IMG/VR virus record: IMGVR_UViG_3300042691_016020
Coordinates: 1-32,049 of that record
Strand: one strand, 5' to 3'
Source of the DNA: a virus
Length of the DNA: 32,049 nt
Part shown: in pieces, positions 11,873 through 24,833 of the stretch
Layout: each line of letters opens with the position of its first letter
Numbering within the stretch: the first letter of the stretch is position 1
Translations under genes and position numbers: made by a program
Notes under the pieces: generated by a model
The model's database searches: none
What the model was told of the DNA's origin: nothing
What the model saw: the letters and a program-made list of their open reading frames with translations, nothing else

Positions 11873-13824
11873 TGGCAAATAAAAAAATTAATCAGTTAGA
11901 TAGTAGGGTATTGAGCGCTACTGATTTAATGCTTGTTGGTGATCCAATAACAGGTACATCTTATAAGAGTTTGGTAAGTGGATTAGGATTGGTGTATGTA
12001 CCTTATACTGGCGCTACCGCTAATGTTAATCTTGGGGAGTACGCTTTATCTGCTGGTCAATTAACTTTAGATACTTCACCAACTGGTACAGCAACAGTTG
12101 GTACTACGAGATGGAATGATGCGATAGGAAGCAGTGAGACCACTTTAAAAGGTGGCAATGTTATTCTTAAGAATGGTGTTGACTTGGTTGCAAGGGTGGT
12201 GAACAAGGTTAGTCCTAATACAACACTAACTAAAGCAGCATATCAAGCGGTAAGGATTAGTGGTGCTCAGGGTCAGAGACTTGCCATAGAACTTGCACAA
12301 GGAAATAATGATTTAAATAGTGCTGACACAATCGGATTGGTGACTGAGACTATTGCACCAAATCAAGAAGGATTTATAATGACTGTCGGGCAACTTGAGA
12401 ACATCAATACAACTGGAAGTCTTCAAGGTGAGACTTGGGCAGATGGTGATGTACTTTATCTTAGTCCTACAACAGCAGGAGCAATCACTAATGTGAAGCC
12501 TACAGGTGCAACTGGTCATCTTGTTATTATTGGATATGTTGAATATGCTCACGCAAACAATGGTAAAATATACGTCAAAACCACGAACGGCTTTGAACTT
12601 GATGAACTCCACAATGTTGCTATCTCATCACCTGCCAACAATGATGCACTTATCTACGAATCAAGCACCTCACTTTGGAAGAATAAGACAATTGCAACTG
12701 CGTTAGGTTATACACCAGTTACCAATGCTCGTACAATAACAATAAATGGAGACACTAAAGACCTTAGTGCAGACCGTTCATGGACAATTGCAGGTGTAAC
12801 AGATGGAGACAAGGGAGATATCACAGTCAGTTCAAGTGGTGCAACTTGGACAATTGACAATGGCGTAGTAGGTGTCGCTAAACTAAGTGCAACAGGTACC
12901 CCATCCTCAACAACATATTTGCGAGGTGATAATACTTGGGCGAATGTGAGTGGTGGTACTCCTGCTGGTTCTAATACTCAGATTCAATATAATAATAGTG
13001 GTGCTTTTGGTGCGAGTGCAGGATTGACTTATGTTGATTCTACGGGAATATTTTCACTTACTAAGAATCAGAATTCTGCAACAACTATTAATATTTCCAA
13101 TACTAATAATAATGCATCTTCAGAATCAAATTTAGTTTTAACATCAAATTCAGGACAAGCAAGTATTGGTAAATATTCAACTACTAAAAGTTATAAAATA
13201 ATTTCAGGCGGTGATGCCTATATATATAATTCTTCAGGTGATTTAGCAATTCAAAATGATATTGGTGGTGGCAAAATAAAATTTGCATCAGGCAATTCAT
13301 CTACTGCACATATGACTCTCACCGCAGCAGGTCGCCTATTGTTGGGAACAACGACAGAGAGTACGTATTTGCTTGATGTCAACGGGAATGGCAGGGTAAG
13401 ACCTAATTTCTATATTGGAGATTCTACTGGTAATTATGCAGGATTGAATACGCTTTTTATTGGGGGTTCTACATCGGCAGCAGTTTTAGATTTTTGGACT
13501 TCAAATGCAAGAAGTGCTGAACTATTTGCAAATTCATCTGAGTTTCAAATTTTTACACAAAGCACTCCTATAAATTTTAATGCATCTAATACTCTAAATC
13601 CTATTTTAAATTTACAAGGATTTTCTGTTCAAATTGGAACAACAACTGCATCTGCTTCATCAATACTTACACTTCAATCTTCAAATCGTGGATTCCTACC
13701 ACCCCGTATGACCACGACACAAAAGAATGCTATCAGTTCTCCTGCTGCTGGTCTTGTGGTATATGATACAGATACAAACAAACTTTGTTGCTATAACGGC
13801 ACAACTTGGAATGATTTATTTTAA
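11872..13824 (+). CDS. Tail fibre/adhesin protein
   Basis: A 650-residue Ser/Thr/Gly/Asn-rich protein. The N-terminus (KKINQLDSRVLSATDLMLVG) is a conserved attachment-like segment; the middle contains GDKGDITVSSSGATWTIDNG and LSATGTPSSTTYLRGDNTW, a module common in phage fibres; the end has LLGTTTESTYLLDVNGNG and the closing block GFLPPRMTTTQKNAISSPAA with LVVYDTDTNKLCCYNGTTW, typical of fibre ends and host-derived adhesins in Bacteroidota. The start overlaps the upstream stop (TAATG). It shares the repeated module with the second fibre gene at 14140. Receptor binding is inferred; the receptor is unknown. Confidence 0.8.
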   Translation: MANKKINQLDSRVLSATDLMLVGDPITGTSYKSLVSGLGLVYVPYTGATANVNLGEYALSAGQLTLDTSPTGTATVGTTRWNDAIGSSETTLKGGNVILKNGVDLVARVVNKVSPNTTLTKAAYQAVRISGAQGQRLAIELAQGNNDLNSADTIGLVTETIAPNQEGFIMTVGQLENINTTGSLQGETWADGDVLYLSPTTAGAITNVKPTGATGHLVIIGYVEYAHANNGKIYVKTTNGFELDELHNVAISSPANNDALIYESSTSLWKNKTIATALGYTPVTNARTITINGDTKDLSADRSWTIAGVTDGDKGDITVSSSGATWTIDNGVVGVAKLSATGTPSSTTYLRGDNTWANVSGGTPAGSNTQIQYNNSGAFGASAGLTYVDSTGIFSLTKNQNSATTINISNTNNNASSESNLVLTSNSGQASIGKYSTTKSYKIISGGDAYIYNSSGDLAIQNDIGGGKIKFASGNSSTAHMTLTAAGRLLLGTTTESTYLLDVNGNGRVRPNFYIGDSTGNYAGLNTLFIGGSTSAAVLDFWTSNARSAELFANSSEFQIFTQSTPINFNASNTLNPILNLQGFSVQIGTTTASASSILTLQSSNRGFLPPRMTTTQKNAISSPAAGLVVYDTDTNKLCCYNGTTWNDLF

Positions 13825-22520: not shown

Positions 22521-22841
22521 ATGCACATACTACAAAGAGCTCACGAAATAGTAAATCTTAGATCAGAAGAAAAAGAAAGAGAATATGGCCCATTTGATGA
22601 GTCATTAAAAAAGGTGGCTAATATTGCATCTGAATTATGTAGCAAAGAGATTACTACAGAGGATGTCTATAAAGTTTTAATTGCATTGAAACTTAGTAGG
22701 ATGTCATACAATCATAAAGAGGATACGTATTTAGATATGATTTCTTATATTGCAGCATTGTATAACTTTAAAAATAAACAAAATGGACAACAAAAAACAG
22801 ACAGTAAAAAGCCAAGTAAAAGAGCTAAAAGAAAACGCTAA
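22521..22841 (+). CDS. DUF6378-like phage protein
   Basis: A 106-residue protein with the pattern of the DUF6378 phage family: EKEREYGPFDESLKKVANIA (residues 17-36), EITTEDVYKVLIALKLSRMS and EDTYLDMISYIAAL. The C-terminus is a Lys/Arg-rich tail (SKKPSKRAKRKR) absent from the core family. The family has no settled function and is often found near nucleotide-metabolism genes. The ATG follows ACTAAAAC directly. The last 59 bases overlap the next gene. Confidence 0.7.
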   Translation: MHILQRAHEIVNLRSEEKEREYGPFDESLKKVANIASELCSKEITTEDVYKVLIALKLSRMSYNHKEDTYLDMISYIAALYNFKNKQNGQQKTDSKKPSKRAKRKR

Positions 22842-22968
22842 TTTGAAACCTAAGGAAATCTTCGCTCTCCTTACAGAAAAAAATGTGAAGACTACTCAGA
22901 ACTCAATTAACTATTACTACTATGTTAAAAAAGGATTGGTTGCAGCAGACTCTAAAAAAGTTGATTAA
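22783..22968 (+). CDS. Small helix-turn-helix-like protein (61 aa)
   Basis: ATG 22783 is chosen over an earlier in-frame ATG because it gives MDNKKQTVKSQVKELKENAN, a natural basic N-terminus. The middle, LKPKEIFALLTEKNVKTTQN, has the length and hydrophobic spacing of a helix-turn-helix and continues with a Tyr-rich stretch (SINYYYYVKKGLVA). It overlaps the upstream gene by 59 bases and the next by 47. A regulator of the nucleotide genes is possible. Confidence 0.5.
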   Translation: MDNKKQTVKSQVKELKENANLKPKEIFALLTEKNVKTTQNSINYYYYVKKGLVAADSKKVD

Positions 22969-23701
22969 TAAACCAATAATTACTACAAGAGCCGGGGATG
23001 CTAAGGTCTTGATTGGATGGCATAAAACATTTGATCTAGATCGATTCCCGGCTACTACTAGTAAGAAATTGGTATTATCACAGGTAGCAAAAGAACTTTA
23101 TTGCTTTATTAATAAGCTTGAAAAAAAAGAAGATATTAATAAGCATGGGTTGATTATATGGGATGACAATATCAAAGCTGCTAACATGGATGGTATTGGT
23201 CGCGTTTATGGTATACAGTGGCGTGATTGGAATAAAAAAATTGATCAATTACGTGATAGTATTAATTTAATTAAAAGTGATAAAACAACAAGGCGTGCTA
23301 TTGTTACGGCATGGAATCCTAGCGAATTAAATGAAGGATGTCTTCCACCTTGTCATATTTTGTTTCAATTAAATGTAGTAAAAAATACTTTGTATTTATC
23401 TGTATATCAAAGAAGTGCCGATGCTTTTCTTGGTTTGCCTTTTGATATTGCTTCTTATTCAATACTAGCAAGGCTTATACAAAATGAATTAAATATAAAA
23501 AATGCAAAGCTTTCTTATTACGTTTCTAATTTGCATTTATATATGAATCACTTTGATCAAGCTAAAGAATGTATTGATCTAGAATGTCATGAGTATCCAA
23601 AATTAAAATTGAATGATACTATAGACAACTTCCATTATAACAACGTTATTCTAGAAGACTACAAGTATATAAAATTTATTAAAGCAAATATGAATGTATG
23701 A
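22922..23701 (+). CDS. Thymidylate-synthase-family enzyme, predicted dCMP (hydroxy)methylase
   Basis: A 259-residue member of the thymidylate synthase fold. Conserved elements: Arg23 in ITTRAGDAKV, AKELYCF (Glu58), IIWDDN (80-83), RVYGIQWRDW (94-103), TTRRAIVTAW (122-131), the catalytic Cys144 in CLPPCHILFQ, YQRSADAFLGLPF (162-174) and LHLYMNHFDQ (204-213). The residue reading the pyrimidine ring is changed: thymidylate synthases have Asn in PFNIASY, this protein has Asp175 in PFDIASY. T4 dCMP hydroxymethylase has Asp at the matching place, and the same change in Lactobacillus casei TS favours dCMP. I predict a dCMP hydroxymethylase or methylase; folate dependence is inferred. MazG-like and dCMP deaminase genes follow directly. 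Plain thymidylate synthase activity remains possible. Confidence 0.8.
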   Translation: MLKKDWLQQTLKKLINKPIITTRAGDAKVLIGWHKTFDLDRFPATTSKKLVLSQVAKELYCFINKLEKKEDINKHGLIIWDDNIKAANMDGIGRVYGIQWRDWNKKIDQLRDSINLIKSDKTTRRAIVTAWNPSELNEGCLPPCHILFQLNVVKNTLYLSVYQRSADAFLGLPFDIASYSILARLIQNELNIKNAKLSYYVSNLHLYMNHFDQAKECIDLECHEYPKLKLNDTIDNFHYNNVILEDYKYIKFIKANMNV

Positions 23702-23997
23702 ATCTAACAAATGAATTTCAATCAATAAGAGACTGGGCTTCTGAAAGAGGTATATACGAAAAAGGAGATCCTAAGACTCAATTCCTTAAACTTCAAGAAG
23801 AAGTAGGTGAACTAGCAAAAGCTATTTTAAAAAATGATGATGTAGAAATTGTTGATGCCATTGGCGATTGTGTAGTAGTATTGACTAATTTAAGCGAGTT
23901 AACTGGATACAAGATAGAAGACTGCATTAACTCTGCTTATGAAGTAATTGCAAAACGAAAAGGATCAATGATCAATGGAACATTTGTCAAGGATTAA
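23698..23997 (+). CDS. MazG-like nucleotide pyrophosphohydrolase
   Basis: A 99-residue all-alpha protein with the MazG signature: KLQEEVGELAKAIL (Glu34, Glu35, Glu38) and, after the spacer, VEIVDAIGDCVVVL (Glu50, Asp53, Asp57), giving the metal-binding EExxE...ExxDxxxD set. It would hydrolyse an NTP or dNTP to the monophosphate and pyrophosphate. Next to a dCMP-type TS homologue, a dCTP or dUTP substrate is attractive (T4 gp56 dCTPase is a functional analogue), but the substrate is not readable from sequence. ATGA overlap with the upstream gene; 23-base overlap with the next. Confidence 0.8.
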   Translation: MNLTNEFQSIRDWASERGIYEKGDPKTQFLKLQEEVGELAKAILKNDDVEIVDAIGDCVVVLTNLSELTGYKIEDCINSAYEVIAKRKGSMINGTFVKD

Positions 23998-24382
23998 ATT
24001 TTATTTATCAATAGCAAAAGAAGTCAGTAAAGCTTCTTATTGTGAAAAATATAAGGTAGGCGCCGTTATAGTTAAAGATGATAATATAATATCATTTGGC
24101 TATAACGGCATGCCTCCTGGTTTTGATAATATTTGTGAAATTGATGGCAAAACAAAGAAAGAAGTTTTGCATGCGGAATCTAATGCAATTACAAAATGTG
24201 CTAAAAGCATATACAGTTCCAACAATTCACAAATGTATTTAACCCTTTCTCCTTGTCATAATTGCGCAAAACTGATCCTACAATCTGGTATAAAAGAAGT
24301 ATACTATATTCAACAATACAAAGATACTTCAGGCATAGAACTTCTAAAACAATCAAATGTCCACGTTGAACAAATCACATAG
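23975..24382 (+). CDS. dCMP deaminase family protein
   Basis: A 135-residue zinc deaminase with the signature HAESNAI (His67 zinc ligand, Glu69 proton shuttle) and SPCHNCAKLI (Cys94, Cys97 zinc ligands), preceded by YKVGAVIVKDDNIISFGYNG. This is the ComEB/dCMP deaminase subfamily, converting dCMP to dUMP. It provides dUMP for thymidylate synthesis and, as in T4, coexists with enzymes that act on dCMP. The C-terminal 26 bases overlap the next gene. Confidence 0.88.
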   Translation: MEHLSRIKFYLSIAKEVSKASYCEKYKVGAVIVKDDNIISFGYNGMPPGFDNICEIDGKTKKEVLHAESNAITKCAKSIYSSNNSQMYLTLSPCHNCAKLILQSGIKEVYYIQQYKDTSGIELLKQSNVHVEQIT

Positions 24383-24833
24383 TACAATAAAAGATAGATA
24401 CTGCAAAGCTCATGAAATCTGGTTTAAAGAATCATATCCAAATGCATATAAGGATGGATATTATCTAGATCCTAAGCTACCAAAAGTAGATACTGCAAAT
24501 GGGCTTACTACTTTCATTTGTAATTTTTTATCTTGGTCTGGACATAGAGCAACAAGAGTAAATGTATCAGGTAGATTAATTGATGGCATTGAAAAACAAC
24601 CATCAGGTGCAAAGATAGGAGTAAAAAAATGGATACCATCATCTACTAGAAAAGGTACAGCAGATATTTCAGCTACAATAAAAGGCAGATCTGTTATGAT
24701 TGAAATAAAAGTTGGATCAGATAAACCTAGAGAGGATCAATTAAAAGAACAGATTAGAGAAAGAAAAGCTGGAGGCATTTACGAATTTATTAAAGATCCA
24801 GATGAATTTTTTAATCTGTACGATAACTTGTAA
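24357..24833 (+). CDS. VRR-NUC-like nuclease
   Basis: A 158-residue protein. The C-terminal half carries a PD-(D/E)XK-type core of VRR-NUC style: KGTADISATIKGRSVMIEIK with Asp103, Glu116 and Lys118, then GSDKPREDQLKEQIRERKAG with Gln128, and the closing GGIYEFIKDPDEF. The N-terminal 95 residues (YCKAHEIWFKESYPNAYKDG, FLSWSGHRATRVNVSGRLID) are an extra segment. Such nucleases act on branched DNA or in recombination. It overlaps the deaminase gene by 26 bases. Confidence 0.75.
   Translation: MSTLNKSHSTIKDRYCKAHEIWFKESYPNAYKDGYYLDPKLPKVDTANGLTTFICNFLSWSGHRATRVNVSGRLIDGIEKQPSGAKIGVKKWIPSSTRKGTADISATIKGRSVMIEIKVGSDKPREDQLKEQIRERKAGGIYEFIKDPDEFFNLYDNL

Follow-up and report, generated by a model that had tools for sequence, protein, structure and literature searches.

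Described systems of cytosine modification in phages

In bacteriophage T4, cytosine modification relies on the dCMP hydroxymethylase gp42, the dCTPase gp56, and the deaminase cd, whereas in phage Xp12 5-methylcytosine (5mC) is found in DNA in place of cytosine. A third point of reference is the thymidylate synthase (TS) family itself, as the switch of substrate caused by a single Asn-to-Asp replacement is a textbook result of protein engineering. The respective mutants of E. coli (N177D) and L. casei (N229D) prefer dCMP and convert it to 5-methyl-dCMP (Hardy and Nalivaika, 1992; Liu and Santi, 1992; as summarized in PMC8670742). In experimental metagenomes, TS genes encoding Asp177, along with PRA-PH and dCMP-deaminase domains, track with contigs containing modified cytosine (PMC8670742). 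For hydroxymethylation, the proposed signature consists of Asp or Glu at the third position ahead of the catalytic Cys (Cys-3), together with Ser or Thr preceding the catalytic Tyr by two positions; replacement D145N killed the activity of the T4 enzyme, which lacks the C-terminal tail of TS (PMC6400193).

In Stenotrophomonas phage AXL1, which is Xp12-like, adjacent genes gp62–gp64 (L168:26147-28334) encode a dCMP deaminase, an Asp-type TS homologue, and a nucleotide pyrophosphohydrolase. The middle gene (gp63), annotated as thymidylate synthase, has the Asp-type motif GLPYDVMGH, and judging from its sequence is likely the source of the presumed 5mC of AXL1, the genetic mechanism of which is still called unknown in the literature (PMC9206674). 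Our search of the literature yielded no report of 5-methyl-dCMP in phages, nor one of hydroxymethylcytosine in phages of Flavobacterium.

Gene content of the locus

We analyzed a virus record of 32,049 bases (IMG/VR IMGVR_UViG_3300042691_016020), the whole of which is referred to here as the window. The best matches of its terminase are Flavobacterium phages, and several Cellulophaga, Tenacibaculum, and Flavobacterium phages are among the named-phage matches of its primase, in agreement with the first-pass annotation, which had attributed the DNA to a Bacteroidota phage. Genes for a DUF6378 protein, a TS homologue, a MazG-like protein, a dCMP deaminase, a nuclease-like protein, a replication-initiation-like protein, and a primase-helicase follow each other in this order (Table 1). 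Adjacent cassette genes share overlaps of a few bases, fitting one operon.

Table 1. Features of the predicted cytosine-modification locus and of the corresponding slot in sister phages
Feature	Coordinates	Strand	Evidence
DUF6378 (PF19905) protein; first gene of the presumably imported block common to other Asp-TS phages	22521..22841	+	Pfam E 6e-15
Asp-type TS homologue, predicted dCMP 5-methylase	22922..23701	+	PF00303 E 1e-63, residues, tree
Leu141 codon, position Cys-3; TS-type (Leu), not hydroxymethylase-type (Asp/Glu)	23342..23344	+	criterion of PMC6400193
Cys144 codon (TGT), catalytic nucleophile in LPPCH	23351..23353	+	
Asp175 codon (GAT); counterpart of Asn177 in E. coli TS and of Asp179 in T4 gp42	23444..23446	+	
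MazG-like all-alpha NTP pyrophosphatase, candidate dCTPase	23698..23997	+	PF03819 E 1e-7, PF01503 E 1e-4, phrog_1992 E 7e-36
dCMP deaminase homologue	23975..24382	+	PF00383 E 2e-24, phrog_174 E 2e-51
Small nuclease-like protein, marker of the sister-phage backbone	24357..24833	+	phrog_93 endonuclease E 3e-7
Junction; sister phages hold a gene for a 216-aa T4 gp42-like hydroxymethylase there	24382..24390	+	
Swappable slot in sister phages	L170:3831-4580; L171:2092-4735; L173:2100-4743		

The three-gene cassette claimed at first reading is confirmed, as intact MazG-like and dCMP deaminase genes follow the TS homologue. The deaminase retains the HAE and PCxxC motifs, and its best PDB match is the deoxycytidylate deaminase 4p9c (E 2e-33); the MazG-like protein retains the EExxE...ExxD motif and has a weak PDB match (1vmg, E 7e-5). 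By sequence, the window thus places a dCMP deaminase next to a candidate dCMP C5 enzyme, as does the T4-type cassette. We assign a probability of about 0.58 to the reading that the TS homologue is a dCMP 5-methylase giving rise to 5mC-containing DNA, in a variant of the T4 logic.

Active-site residues of the TS homologue

The TS homologue (259 aa) matches the Pfam family Thymidylat_synt over residues 27–259. Its identity to E. coli ThyA is 34% (BLASTP E 3e-45), and it shows no specific kinship to T4 gp42 (BLASTP E 0.005). The catalytic Cys, the phosphate-binding Arg pair, Glu58, Asp169, and the C-terminal tail of ThyA are present, and the protein scores above the thymidylate synthase cut-off of NCBIfam TIGR03284, which is a point against the methylase reading. 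However, position 175, aligned with the uracil-selecting Asn177 of E. coli TS, is occupied by Asp; the motif reads RSADAFLGLPFDIASY, i.e., PFDIASY instead of PFNIASY, the norm for TSs. Alignment therefore bears out the Asn-to-Asp switch that had been reported from the letters of the window; Cys144 and the remaining catalytic residues are preserved. The hydride-transfer residues of TS and the Asp177 equivalent, both present in the alignment, form the combination expected of a dCMP methylase.

Since Asp175 also aligns with the pyrimidine-reading Asp179 of T4 gp42, and since a true hydroxymethylase occupies the same locus in related phages (see below), the enzyme might be a dCMP hydroxymethylase as in T4, producing 5-hydroxymethylcytosine (5hmC). 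We consider this unlikely, as the water-activating Asp at Cys-3 (Asp145 in T4, also Asp in the sister phage L170) is replaced by Leu141, and the window has Arg94-Val95-Tyr96, that is, no Ser two residues before Tyr, where L170 and T4 have Ser-Asn-Tyr (Ser94-x-Tyr96 in T4); both signature positions are essential according to PMC6400193. In addition, a TS-type tail is retained, the terminal YIKFIKANMNV aligning with HPGIKAPVAI of E. coli, and so are, unlike in hydroxymethylases, Leu at Cys-3 and the equivalents of His147, Val93, and Phe176. Given the absence of the hydroxymethylase signature and the much greater closeness to ThyA than to gp42, the window enzyme resembles the N177D and N229D mutants of TS, and 5-methyl is a better prediction than 5-hydroxymethyl. 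Of the two products named in the first-pass annotation, the hydroxymethyl one is thus disfavored and the methyl one is predicted.

The window enzyme and the mutants have in common the TS scaffold with the identical replacement, which in the mutants, following the same summary in PMC8670742, leads to methylation of dCMP; unlike them, the window protein is natural, has its own clade and operon partners, and its activity is a predicted one. With the TSs of modified MetaGPA contigs (PMC8670742) it shares Asp177 and the proximity of pyrophosphatase and deaminase genes, the corresponding domains there being PRA-PH and dCMP deaminase. On the other hand, position 147 also separated modified from unmodified contigs in that study, whereas the window has the His147 of TS, and the carbamoyltransferase of the MetaGPA contigs is absent from the window. 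AXL1 gp63, with NVPCP and SAY in its active site and an architecture of its own, differs from the window enzyme, which keeps LPPCH; hence, the known 5mC phages provide no direct support for the architecture seen here.

Conservation and phylogeny of Asp-type TSs

Asp is invariant in the eight closest viral relatives of the window enzyme (67–88% identity) and hence is not a sequencing slip. A pattern scan of the viral collection yielded 33 stretches with the Asp motif and at least 120 with the Asn motif. In a tree built from 57 sequences, the window protein belongs to an all-Asp group of 11 rows (support 81/91; present in 87% of bootstrap trees), while seven other Asp-type sequences are dispersed among Asn-type ones. 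Thus, the clustering with true TSs that would speak against cytosine modification is seen in part: the protein groups with TSs and not with gp42, yet it does so inside an all-Asp clade. A joint tree that also covered T4 gp42 and SPO1 was rejected for placement, as its branches are very long. No bacterial home of the Asp-type family was confirmed in a scan of genome contigs.

Sporadic Asp-type TS genes with no adjoining deaminase occur within Asn-type clades (L012, L013, L014, L016, L017, L022, L026, L028), and by sequence they appear to be natural Asp variants of otherwise ordinary TSs. The existence of such cassette-less variants in other phages, the degree of identity to ThyA, the full set of catalytic residues, and the TIGR03284 score would all be compatible with the window enzyme being an ordinary TS, in which a natural Asp does no harm and dUMP, provided by the deaminase, is still the substrate. 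This seems improbable to us for three reasons. Firstly, Asp is maintained across a very divergent clade. Secondly, the engineered Asn-to-Asp mutants, as summarized in PMC8670742, turn to dCMP. Thirdly, the gene has been exchanged with that of a hydroxymethylase in the same locus.

Association with pyrophosphatase and deaminase genes

An NTP pyrophosphatase gene (MazG, PRA-PH, or dUTPase_2) lies at most 1.4 kb from the TS gene in all 14 testable contigs of the Asp clade, and a dCMP deaminase gene is found near TS in 13 of them; these counts cover only contigs long enough to judge, with one-half (7/14) being close kin of the window enzyme. The DUF6378 gene is present in the wider cassettes of the clade as well. 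Among 27 Asn-type contigs, there is neither a deaminase within 2 kb (0/27) nor such a pyrophosphatase within 1.4 kb (0/27). The raw table of deaminase adjacency (10/18 Asp-type vs. 0/27 Asn-type; Fisher p 1e-5) ignores kinship, and a kinship-independent test retains two pairs, too few to reach significance. As the association is confined essentially to one clade, it indicates that the partnership is stable, not that it arose repeatedly.

One contig (that of L033) encodes, between PRA-PH and the Asp-type TS, a kinase-like protein with weak similarity to thymidylate kinases and PPK2 (L257:16335-17294), which on the basis of its sequence is a candidate kinase for modified dCMP. A phage with an Asn-type TS (contig of L121, G044) contains a second, divergent TS homologue (13221–13538) in the vicinity of genes for a dCMP deaminase (14859) and PRA-PH (8838).

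Exchange with a hydroxymethylase in sister phages

The nearest relatives of the window phage were found by a primase search. Those with primase identity of 81–95% encode, between the equivalent deaminase and nuclease genes, a 216-aa gp42-like protein that has T4 dCMP hydroxymethylase (1b49) as its best PDB match (E 8e-21) and a complete hydroxymethylase signature (DTPCT, SNYG, GFCND). No Asp-type TS was seen in this locus of the hydroxymethylase-bearing sisters. Conversely, the hydroxymethylase gene is absent from the window between positions 24381 and 24390, which correspond to 5448 and 6067 of L170. The T4-like logic put forward at first reading is thereby strengthened, as a T4-type hydroxymethylase is found at the same locus of sister phages. 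Remoter relatives with no C5 enzyme likewise had no MazG and no deaminase in the stretch examined.

In the primase tree, the window is nested within the hydroxymethylase-bearing group, and therefore loss of the hydroxymethylase in the window lineage, along with gain of the Asp-type TS, is the simplest scenario. The identities to the Asp-TS phage L002 and to the sister L170 are, respectively, 79 and 56% for DUF6378, 71 and 83% for MazG, and 59 and 85% for the deaminase; the small nuclease-like protein is 86% identical to that of L170. Such mosaicism suggests that a block of DUF6378 and Asp-type TS was imported into a former hydroxymethylase backbone, whose original MazG and deaminase were retained. 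The same mosaicism relative to the sister phages would also fit an assembly chimera or a non-functional import. We regard either as very improbable, since the reading frames are open and overlapping and all catalytic residues are intact; moreover, no other TS found has more than 88% identity to that of the window, which hence was not spliced from a known contig. Among the sequence-based arguments, the exchange is our best evidence that the Asp-type TS acts on dCMP in DNA modification: as it occupies the place of the relatives' T4-type hydroxymethylase, the virus probably methylates its cytosines, and this methylation probably protects its DNA.

T4 gp42-like hydroxymethylases of small Bacteroidota-type phages are encoded at L170:5424-6074, L171:5418-6077, and L175:3714-4370. 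The first of these shares approximately 53% identity with proteins annotated as deoxycytidylate hydroxymethyltransferases in Bacteroides fragilis phages, e.g., BF486P2, in which two genes of this kind occur along with dut. Between DUF6378 and MazG, the sisters have a variable slot, which contains either a SAM methyltransferase with a 61-aa protein or a set of three genes, one of them threonine-dehydratase-like (phrog_7093); products of the slot genes could modify 5hmC further. Another arrangement (L191:4137-6154), with MazG, dCMP deaminase, a divergent Asp-type TS homologue, and then an asparagine-synthase/glutamine-amidotransferase protein, suggests a different cytosine hypermodification.

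Palindrome avoidance and the role of the deaminase

Asp-TS phages close to the donor of the imported block (L010–L037) strongly avoid C/G-containing palindromes (observed/expected 0.57–0.77; 0.58–0.77 for L010, L015, L036, L037, and the contig of L024), and the window itself is relaxed (0.94). As full protection should relax avoidance, the low values in these phages count somewhat against it; the measure is noisy, with 0.66–1.12 in sister phages, and the test is weak, since T4 itself has 0.82.

The deaminase could also act downstream of the TS homologue. T-even-type dCMP deaminases accept 5-substituted dCMP, and thymidylate might be made in reversed order, 5-methyl-dCMP being converted to dTMP by the adjacent deaminase with no dUMP step and with normal cytosine in DNA. 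The nearly constant adjacency of the deaminase in the Asp clade, the palindrome avoidance of donor-type phages, and the fact that none of the scanned window proteins is a kinase devoted to modified dCMP all fit this route. Nevertheless, we find it rather unlikely, for the MazG and deaminase of the sisters accompany a hydroxymethylase, which cannot give dTMP in this way, and an enzyme of the MazG, PRA-PH, or dUTPase_2 type, expected for dCTP exclusion, is present in every cassette of the clade. A branch point, at which 5-methyl-dCMP would either enter DNA as 5mC or be passed on to dTMP by the deaminase, is likewise doubtful.

Proposed pathway

For the preferred reading, 5mC synthesis by a dCMP 5-methylase, we infer the substrate, the product, its incorporation, and the benefit as follows. 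The window enzyme would be a member of the TS family that acts specifically on C5 of dCMP and retains the hydride-transfer machinery of TS; with methylene-tetrahydrofolate as the second substrate, its most likely product would be 5-methyl-dCMP. Phosphorylation by a kinase would then lead to 5-methyl-dCTP, which would enter phage DNA and replace cytosine in part or in full. Meanwhile, the MazG-like enzyme would clear dCTP and yield dCMP, like T4 gp56, and the deaminase would set the balance of dCMP and dUMP, like T4 cd; the payoff would be resistance to host restriction. As had been noted at first reading, neither a dNMP kinase nor a glucosyltransferase is visible among the window proteins scanned, which comprise part of the ORFs, some of them with no family match. 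This is a difference from T4 and, with respect to a kinase for 5-methyl-dCMP, a point against the pathway; the kinase is thus probably that of the host.

Implications

The locus shares with T4 the cytosine-reading Asp, the NTP pyrophosphatase and dCMP deaminase alongside, and the predicted pre-replicative modification of dCMP at C5; as a dCMP 5-methylase system deduced from sequence comparison, it is probably a novel version of the T4 scheme. The replacement known from engineering appears to have been made naturally in a clade whose TS is otherwise intact and has matching operon partners. Through the replacement of the hydroxymethylase in one lineage, 5hmC and predicted 5mC can be compared cleanly on a common backbone, and one can test what minimum of changes suffices for a pathway of DNA-cytosine methylation to evolve. 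More generally, many phage genes annotated as thymidylate synthase may encode cytosine-modifying enzymes.
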